Origin: Synechococcus sp. UW140
GTDB lineage: Bacteria; Cyanobacteriota; Cyanobacteriia; PCC-6307; Cyanobiaceae
Direction: 5' to 3'
Assembly (NCBI GenBank): GCA_945860085.1
Contig: CAMAPJ010000013.1
Location: forward strand, 1 to 44,056
Length of the DNA stretch: 44,056 nt
This document shows positions 37,884-39,613 of the stretch, piece after piece. Both the position numbers and the translations under genes were made by a program. The notes under the pieces are model-generated. The model had not been told where the DNA came from. It ran no database searches and was given only the letters and a program-made list of their open reading frames with translations. Position 1 is the first letter of the stretch, and each line of letters starts with the position of its first letter.

Positions 37884-38155
37884 GGGCGCAGGGGAGGGTC
37901 TAGCAGATCTGAGAGGCCCGCCCATGCCGAAACCCCCCAGGCCCAACGCATCAAGGCATAGCCTGGATCACCCTGAGCTTCACCACCAGCAGCCGTATAC
38001 CCTACTTATGGAGAAAGGGTGAGTGGAAATACTTGATAAACGACAGGGGTTATAAATAAACTTTTGAAAGAAATCAATGATTTGAAAGTAATTCGAAATC
38101 TATAATGAGACAAGCGGGTTTGGATTGAATAAATTTACTCAAGTTCAGGGTGGCG
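37884..38155. other. Gap between uvrA and the IS element
   Basis: About 270 bases without a credible gene. The first 110 bases resemble the GC-rich core; from about 37990 the sequence turns AT-rich. No terminator with T-run is obvious after uvrA. Confidence 0.5.
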
Positions 38156-38251
38156 TGGACCCTATAAACTGAACCAATGCTTATGAGAGCTTCCCCACCA
38201 GCCAGACTTGGCAAGGAGAAGCCTCGATGAAAGCCAAACGCCACAGCCCCG

Positions 38252-38277
38252 TAGCCGAAGGCTTCTCCGCAGGAGTA
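38252..38277 (+). repeat. Mini double-hairpin element, family I, copy A
   Basis: Structure: outer GTA/TAC; hairpin GCC(GAA)GGC at 38254-38262; spacer TT; hairpin CTCC(GCA)GGAG at 38265-38275. It interrupts orfA between the codons for HSP and VQII, adding 24 bases in frame with a repeated GTA at both edges, so the transposase frame stays open across it. Confidence 0.75.
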
Positions 38278-38408
38278 CAGATCATCCGCAAGTTGCGCAC
38301 CGCTGAGCAGCTTTTGAGCCAGGGCCAGGCCGTCGCTGACGTCTGCCGAGCCCTGGAGGTATCCCCAGCGACTTATCACCGCTGGCAGCAGCTGTACGGG
38401 GGAATGTA

Positions 38409-38433
38409 GACGAAGTCGGCCGGAGGCCATGAG
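38409..38433 (+). repeat. Mini double-hairpin element, family II, copy F
   Basis: Two adjacent hairpins without spacer: GAC(GAA)GTC at 38409-38417 and GGCC(GGA)GGCC at 38418-38428, followed by ATGAG. It directly follows the orfA segment YGGM. A copy in the opposite orientation lies at 39293-39315. Confidence 0.72.
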
Positions 38434-38457
38434 CTAGTGAGGCATAACGCCTCTAGC
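38433..38457 (+). repeat. Single hairpin insertion G inside orfA remnant
   Basis: Arms GCTA + GAGGC (38433-38443, with a 2-nt bulge) pair with GCCTC + TAGC (38449-38457) around the loop ATAAC. It is sandwiched between elements F and B, sharing the TAG at its right edge with B, which suggests nested or adjacent insertion. Confidence 0.5.
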
Positions 38458-38480
38458 CGTAAGGATTCTCCGAAGGAGTA
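38454..38480 (+). repeat. Mini double-hairpin element, family I, copy B
   Basis: Outer CTA (38453-38455) and TAG (38479-38481); first hairpin weaker, CC(GTAA)GG at 38457-38464; spacer TT at 38466-38467; second hairpin CTCC(GAA)GGAG at 38468-38478. It ends directly before GAG-CTG of the orfA zipper region and contributes in-frame stops. Confidence 0.72.
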
Positions 38481-38550
38481 GGAGCTGGAACAGGAGAACA
38501 GCCGGCTAAAGCGGTTACTCGCTGATGCAGAGCTCGACAAGGCCATGCTC

Positions 38551-38576
38551 TAGCCGCAGGCTTCTGCGAAGCAGTA
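38551..38576 (+). repeat. Mini double-hairpin element, family I, copy C
   Basis: Outer CTA/TAG; hairpin GCC(GCA)GGC at 38553-38561; spacer TT; hairpin CTGC(GAA)GCAG at 38564-38574. Relative to copies A and B both sides of the second stem changed together (CTCC/GGAG to CTGC/GCAG). Inserted after the orfA segment DKAML. Confidence 0.75.
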
Positions 38577-38585
38577 GGAGCTTGT

Positions 38586-38611
38586 TGCGCCGCTAGGCGC
38601 ACCTGGCGGTG
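38586..38611 (+). repeat. Double-hairpin insertion E near orfA end
   Basis: TGCGCC(GCTA)GGCGCA at 38586-38601 is followed by a second short stem CC(TGGC)GG, extendable to CACC/GGTG by sharing two bases with the first. Deleting 24 bases here (flanked by TGCG on both sides) restores a normal orfA end, EL-VATGNY-stop. The loops are not GNA, so this is a different family. Confidence 0.55.
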
Positions 38612-38651
38612 CGACGGGAAACTACTGAGCCCGGAGCGTCGTCGCAGGGCC

Positions 38652-39486
38652 GTGATGGTTTTGCAGGATCGATTCCGGGTTTCTCAGCGGCGGGCTAGCC
38701 GTTTAGCGGGCCAGAACCGCAACACACAACGGCGGCCTACGCCTATTGCAGACATCGAGGAAGGGAAGCTGCGCAGCCGGATCAGGGAGCTGGCAAGGCG
38801 CCATGGACGCTGGGGCCGCCGCCTGGTTTACCGCCGGCTGCGGCTCGACGGCTGGAGCGTCAATCACAAGCGGGTACAAAGGATCTGGCGAGAAGAGGGG
38901 CTCCAGCGCGGCGCCTGCCGCGCAAGCGGAAGCGCTCTCGTCCCCCAGGCGGCTCAAGGGAGCTGCTTAGAGCCGAATATCCGCATCACGTGTGGGCGAT
39001 CGACTTCCAGTTCGACCAGACGATGGATGGACGCAGATTGAAATTCCTCAATGTTATCGATGAACTCAGTCGTGCTTGCTTGGCCATTCGTGTCGGCAGG
39101 CGCTGCAAGGCAGAGGATGTGGTTACCACCATTGAGCAACTGCTCAGTCAGCATCCAGCCCCCACCCATCTACGAATGGACAATGGTCCCGAATTCATTG
39201 CCAATGCCCTGCAAGAGTGGTGCATGGGCAATGGATCCGCCACTGCCTATATCCCGCCAGGGTCACCATGGGAGAATCCATTCGTGGAGTCATAAGAGCT
39301 CCGCTCGACTGCGTCGACAATGGTCGCTTAAGGGATGAGTTCTTAAATGTGGAACTGTTTGCATCACTGACTGAGGCCAAGGTGTTGGCAGAACAGCATC
39401 GGATCGAGTACAACGTCTACAGACCGCATTCGGCTCTCCAGGGGCATACGCCCCTGGAAGTCCTCCAGCAATGGAAGGCGGCCTGA
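38652..39486 (+). pseudogene. IS3 orfB (DDE integrase-type transposase), frameshifted
   Basis: OrfB is the catalytic part of the IS3 transposase. The first frame gives RFRVSQRRASRLAGQNRNTQR then RIRELARRHGRWGRRLVYRR (HTH_21 region) up to about 38915. It then shifts (an apparent extra two bases near CAGCGCGGCGCC) to a second frame with HHVWAIDFQFDQTMDGRRLK (first catalytic Asp in AIDF) and THLRMDNGPEFIANALQEW (second Asp in MDNGPEF). GSPWENPFVES is followed by a stop inside hairpin insertion D at 39296-39315. A third frame continues NGRLRDEFLNVELFASLTEA to YNVYRPHSALQGHTPLEVLQQ. All catalytic regions are recognisable, so the decay looks recent. Confidence 0.88.
39293..39315 (-). repeat. Mini double-hairpin element, family II, copy D (inverted)
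   Basis: On the minus strand: GAC(GCA)GTC (39315-39307) then GAGC(GGA)GCTC (39306-39296), followed by TTATGA. It matches copy F in layout and in most bases outside the stems. It splits orfB between the codons for NPFVES and NGRLRDEF, adding about 23 bases and a stop. Confidence 0.72.
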
Positions 39487-39613
39487 TCAACCCACTAGCT
39501 CTCATAAGGACTGAAGCAGCAGAGGGGGTCACGTCAGTATGAAATATGGTTGGAAGTATTTCAATGGAATAAAAATATAATAGGTAATTGATGGTGGCGA
39601 AAGAAGTAGTGGC

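Follow-up and report, generated by a model that had tools for sequence, protein, structure and literature searches.

What are the short, hairpin-bearing segments that interrupt an IS3-family relic of Synechococcus sp. UW140, and how did they get there? The relic lies at 38151–39536 on the forward strand of the DNA stretch analysed (hereafter the window, 44,056 nucleotides), is recognisable by its orfA (HTH_Tnp_1) and orfB (HTH_21, rve and rve_3), and carries all of the hairpin insertions described below. Based on sequence comparisons, three of these segments (family I) are very probably (with a rough probability of 0.88) copies of a non-autonomous, non-coding 25-nt mobile element of the SDR type, which sits in numerous genes across freshwater picocyanobacteria and is among the smallest mobile elements known.

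Hairpin segments in the IS3 relic

Element A (38252–38276, forward strand; 25 nt, TAGCCGAAGGCTTCTCCGCAGGAGTA) and element C (38551–38575, forward strand; 25 nt, TAGCCGCAGGCTTCTGCGAAGCAGTA) are followed by a target-derived A at 38277 and 38576, respectively. Element B (38454–38479, forward strand) is 26 nt long; its first loop has 4 nt, and one of its pairs has decayed. It reads TAGCCGTAAGGATTCTCCGAAGGAGTA when the target-derived A at 38480 is included (27 nt). The three copies were thus found where the initial annotation had placed them (38252–38277, 38454–38480 and 38551–38576), and its reading of five of the six loops as C(GNA)G agrees with the window sequence, the loops being GAA and GCA in A, GTAA and GAA in B, and GCA and GAA in C. 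The broken pair of B belongs to stem 1, in which GGC is intact in the B copy on contig C40 of the same genome. Compared with the pattern GCCGNAGGCTTCTSCGNAGSAG, B has one loop base extra; at up to 3 mismatches, this pattern is expected to match 0.05 times per window by chance, and two exact matches were seen.

As a reference for the IS3 we used L063, a nearly intact relative from Cyanobium sp. Morenito 9A2. Alignment revealed that A, B and the other hairpin insertions (two family II copies and a hairpin pair at about 38586–38612, see below) are absent from L063, and that the site of C is filled in it. Relative to L063, the net gain is 24 nt for A and about 25 nt for B; because C is filled in both the window IS3 and L063, its net gain of 24 nt was taken from the reading frame. 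These values bear out the earlier claim that the segments arrived as insertions of net 24–25 bases. The accompanying claim that each copy sits between segments of normal OrfA had to be corrected for C, which lies in the orfA/orfB overlap, outside orfA proper. The empty site corresponding to A reads CCCCCGAGCAG in L063 and CCCCACGCAG in an IS copy on contig C56 of the UW140 genome itself.

The nearly intact IS3 of Cyanobium sp. Morenito 9A2 (L063/L014) carries element C in the orfA/orfB overlap. The orfB frame of L063 stays open across C, and orfA reaches a TAG from C eight codons early; as orfB is open, the presence of C would not necessarily kill the IS. A truncated IS3 copy on contig C40 of the UW140 genome carries A, the family II element and B; it stops exactly at the right edge of B (G000:C40, around 2944) and is followed by unrelated sequence, so that the B edge may be either a breakpoint or a landing site. 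The window copies landed in the IS3, and some were later copied together with it.

Between A and B, at 38407–38430 (forward strand), lies a double mini-hairpin of a second family, TAGAC(GAA)GTC-GGCC(GGA)GGCC-AT, with a second copy at G000:C8:30643. Another family II copy of the window, GAC(GCA)GTC-GAGC(GGA)GCTC, occupies orfB (39294–39317, reverse strand; about +23 relative to L063), at a site that is also filled in L136. The general form of this family is TAGAC(GNA)GTC, then GGCC(GGA)GGCC or GAGC(GGA)GCTC, then AT; its second stem co-varies, and a few copies occur in several genomes (also at L001(-) 1732, L136 and L191(-)). Family II apparently obeys the same A-replacement rule as family I. 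A further 27-nt insertion at 38586–38612 (forward strand; borders approximate, one copy compared) consists of two hairpins with 4-nt loops, GCGCC(GCTA)GGCGC and CACC(TGGC)GGTG, and possibly represents a third family.

Covariation of the hairpin stems

The 25-nt consensus of the family I element, T-AGCC(GNA)GGCT-T-CTSC(GNA)GSAG-T, forms two adjacent mini-hairpins on one strand. Covariation was examined by searching the fetched loci with a fixed skeleton in which three stem pairs were left free, yielding 104 matches with distinct flanks. Pair 4:10 was found as C-G, A-T or G-C, pair 15:23 as T-A or C-G, and pair 16:22 as G-C or C-G. Watson-Crick pairing was seen at the three free positions in 104, 103 and 101 of the 104 matches (308/312 when pooled), against 80.6, 80.5 and 58.3 expected if columns were independent, these counts not being independent events because the matches are related copies. 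Nearly each variant stem arm has its matching partner among the 104 sites. GNA triloops with a C-G closing pair made up 198 of the 208 loops, on the TAG strand only, and belong to a class known to form very stable DNA mini-hairpins such as GCGAAGC (PMC10527192, PMC5430850).

A scan for structure only revealed 10 double hairpins in 396 kb of the UW140 genome (Markov control: 1) and, for the related genome G204, 17 in 400 kb (control: 0). The predicted folding energy of single copies was not exceptional compared with shuffles, so that the case for folding rests on covariation. The paired stem changes indicate that folding of the element is under selection, as the initial annotation had proposed from the window copies, and they hold in the unselected set of 104 sites. 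One of its arguments, the paired change of the outer stem from GTA/TAC to CTA/TAG, needs correcting: as the outermost pair includes a flanking target base, the change is no compensation internal to the element and by itself no evidence of selection.

Dispersal among picocyanobacteria

The UW140 genome (2.91 Mb in 162 contigs, about 85% complete) contains nine copies at up to 3 mismatches. A covariance-model search, which had been proposed for this genome and its relatives, was run with a model based on 20 variants. It returned 14 matches at E <= 0.05 in the UW140 genome and matches in at least 182 of 300 family genomes (no more than about 25 candidates per genome being scored), with counts in relatives ranging up to this limit of 25. 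The pattern itself, at up to 2 mismatches, occurred in 80 of the 300 family genomes, with zero reversed controls among the matches listed. Exact copies in GTDB species genomes amounted to 61 stretches, with titles naming Cyanobium, Synechococcus, Vulcanococcus, Synechococcaceae and, in one case, Microcystis elabens, next to cyanobacterial records without a genus name; apart from the last two kinds, all titles point to picocyanobacteria. The viral contigs searched held no exact element copies, the plasmid collection searched with element A yielded none either, and the Rfam 15 covariance models did not match the elements.

Insertion sites and the replaced adenine

Copies were grouped into 55 flank clusters, 48 of them without intron junctions, and for most of these 48 homologous empty sites were present in the fetched loci, supplying the empty-site counterparts that had been named earlier as evidence of mobility. 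In 15 of the 16 cases with an empty site of at least 88% identity, replacement began at an A, and the flanks mostly matched. The rule at these high-identity sites is that one A becomes T-N23-T, for a net gain of 24 nt, with the neighbouring bases kept and no target duplication. The target consensus over the 48 sites is Y(-2) S(-1) A A(+1) G(+2), i.e. YS|A|AG, with examples such as CTC|A|AGGAG, CCG|A|ACAG, CCA|A|TGCG (93%) and CCA|A|AGCCC (98%). Flank complementarity was seen at 30 of 48 sites versus 22.7 by chance, a level reached by 2 of 2000 shuffles, and is a target preference.

The clearest example comes from a multicopy group II intron, with the site empty in two copies (CTTTTCG|A|TGC) and filled in another two (CTTTTCG|TAGCCCTTGGGCTTCCGCGCAGCGGT|TGC). 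The insert is a 25-nt variant with a longer stem; its T-...-T takes the place of a single A, and the base that follows is retained. Recent movement is suggested by two IS copies that are 98% alike (L082 and L030), each of which lacks an element at the site where the other has one, and in L051 an element is nested in the GAA loop of another element. Host genes are mostly transposase or other accessory genes; among the interrupted ORFs are those of IS3, IS256 and IS66 transposases, nucleotidyltransferases, a restriction-type helicase and a UDP-sugar dehydrogenase. Both orientations relative to the gene occur, and G204 carries both element orientations within 2.50–2.52 Mb.

An intact IS with the same segments in place had been put forward as an observation that would speak against mobility; element C does sit in the IS3 of L063, but about 48 unrelated sites stay unexplained thereby. 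We also considered, and rejected, a MITE of a DDE transposon, since there is no target duplication and one A is lost at 15 of the 16 high-identity sites.

Group II introns at the element

Five genomes (G204, G242, G167, G069 and G148) contain a group II intron lineage of about 1.9 kb with the 5′ end TTGTGCCACGAG, and matches to Rfam RF01999 and RF00029 were found in the copies scanned. All 13 distinct non-tandem 5′ ends seen in these genomes lie just outside an element, at a distance of 1 nt from its TAG edge and on the strand opposite to it. The corresponding junctions are located at L163 5112, L166 15470, L168 12309, L174 8463, L175(-) 14988, L178 18485 and L179 760, and further in L190(-), L192(-), L194, L196(-), L020 and L027; besides these 13 junctions, L194 holds one tandem intron pair. 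From these positions, the element appears to be the homing site of this intron lineage. G023 contains another intron, and this one makes no use of the element. In two intron copies of G204 (L195 and L196; C1, 2.40 Mb and 0.41 Mb), the flanks of a single nucleotidyltransferase gene are swapped, a pattern that recombination between the copies would produce.

Relation to known repeats

Beyond the family, model R1 found multicopy relatives of the element in large genomes of cyanobacteria, in the forms TAGC(TT)GC-TT-CTCC(GNA)GGAG-T or TAGCC(GAA)GGC-TT-CCC(GCA)GGG-TA. The former was present in 27 plasmid records, all from Nostocales; the Nostocales versions measure 22–24 nt, and the one Calothrix pair compared for empty sites of such a relative showed a larger nested deletion. 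These close structural relatives fit with the SDR kind and uphold the likeness to the small dispersed repeats of filamentous cyanobacteria that had been noted from the window.

SDR4, SDR5 and SDR6 of Nostoc punctiforme and its relatives, reportedly described by Elhai et al. in 2008, are said to be 21–27 nt long, to have a structure backed by compensatory changes, and to occur as insertions and nested in themselves; SDRs in general are reported to be essentially limited to one cyanobacterial subgroup. The element resembles them in size class, in having several copies per cyanobacterial genome, in its predicted structure with compensatory changes, in its insertion at empty sites and in its self-nesting; it differs in its host group (picocyanobacteria) and in its full first hairpin, AGCC(GNA)GGCT. 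SDR5 has been reported between nucleotides 3 and 4 of HIP1 (PMC4390886). Whereas SDR5 lies within HIP1 (GCG^ATCGC), our element targets YS|A|AG and the A is lost, and an identity with an SDR5 confined to HIP1 was rejected on the Y-S-A-A-G consensus over 48 sites. The element seems to form a branch of the SDR kind in picocyanobacteria, a likeness drawn to the published description of SDRs rather than to their consensus sequences.

The double-hairpin elements of Allomyces mitochondria show no target duplication, and an RNA route has been suggested for them (PMC2800124). Together with the repetitive hairpin elements of sponges, they share with our element two adjacent hairpins, dispersal and the lack of target duplication, but they are mitochondrial, and the likeness is structural, with no sequence relation claimed. 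REPs and REPINs with a RAYT, of which the REP foot is GT[AG]G (PMC6006769), are likewise short strand-specific hairpins by a TAG foot and landing sites for mobile elements. In contrast to these, our element has no RAYT in most carriers, its hairpins are tandem rather than inverted, and it lies inside genes and replaces one A.

Possible routes of movement

Without coding capacity, the element must be moved in trans. Comparing Y1_Tnp and RVT_1 between 80 carriers and 220 non-carriers revealed no mobilising enzyme, and 1.6 Mb of fetched sequence contained no larger, autonomous form bounded by the two hairpins. We propose that the element would travel as a single strand in folded form, which an enzyme encoded elsewhere would make and insert in trans, with the single target A in YS|A|AG being exchanged for it. 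For a route through single-strand DNA alone we would offer slightly less than even odds, and with modest confidence DNA is likelier than RNA to be the moving form. The preference for DNA comes from the C(GNA)G triloops, a specialty of DNA, and is further supported by the copies in both orientations relative to genes and by the lack of an RVT_1 match in 67 of 80 carriers, including several single-contig genomes and the incomplete UW140 genome. More tentatively, movement might occur by an undescribed reaction in which one adenine is swapped for a folded strand and the target is not duplicated, with the group II intron lineage having specialised on the element as a landing site. The same orientations and missing reverse transcriptases make it rather unlikely that the element is instead transcribed, folded, joined to target nucleic acid and reverse-transcribed. 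Such an RNA route, which is said to have been suggested for the Nostoc SDRs as well, would nevertheless account for the lack of target duplication, an argument used for Allomyces (PMC2800124), and agrees with the location of the group II intron lineage at the elements. It is also kept open by the enrichment of reverse transcriptases in carriers (13/80 vs 5/220 non-carriers, p = 4e-5), which may merely reflect larger, repeat-rich genomes. Reverse transcriptases often misread 2′-5′ linked A as T, and the consistent replacement of the target A by T might, speculatively, be linked to such misreading.

The strand-specific hairpin after (C/G)TAG recalls the GTAG foot of REPs, but mobilisation of a REP-like repeat in trans by a Y1 HUH transposase (RAYT or IS200/IS605) is improbable. 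Neither the UW140 genome nor 71 of the 80 carriers has Y1_Tnp, and its presence is not associated with carriage (9/80 carriers vs 19/220 non-carriers, p = 0.50), leading us to reject a RAYT/IS200 derivative; moreover, the 1.6 Mb held no split-hairpin autonomous copy, and the A-replacement rule differs from that of IS200/IS605, which insert 3′ of a short motif without base loss. That the copies multiplied only as passengers of IS and other mobile genes would suit the C40 copy, which holds A, family II and B of the same IS, and the filled site C in L063. It is nonetheless very improbable, and already contradicted by the empty-site data, given the nested insertion, the insertion into a group II intron, and some 48 sites that are unrelated to one another, lie in different genes and mostly have an empty homologue. 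We regard as equally far-fetched a functional insert that is taken out of the RNA or the protein, or that ribosomes skip as they do the byp elements of Magnusiomyces mitochondria: the net gain of 24 nt keeps the frame in most copies and some ORFs read straight across the element (L091, L031 and L021), but many copies have a TAG in frame, B adds 25 nt and family II about 23 nt, and the hosts are mostly transposases or other dispensable genes.

Significance

With few copies, clean empty sites, a one-base rule and small genomes, this element makes the movement of ~25-nt repeats testable, and such tests are possible in strains with published genomes, e.g. Synechococcus sp. WH 5701. In addition, the insertion rule helps annotators to spot elements that break genes or add 8 codons to them.
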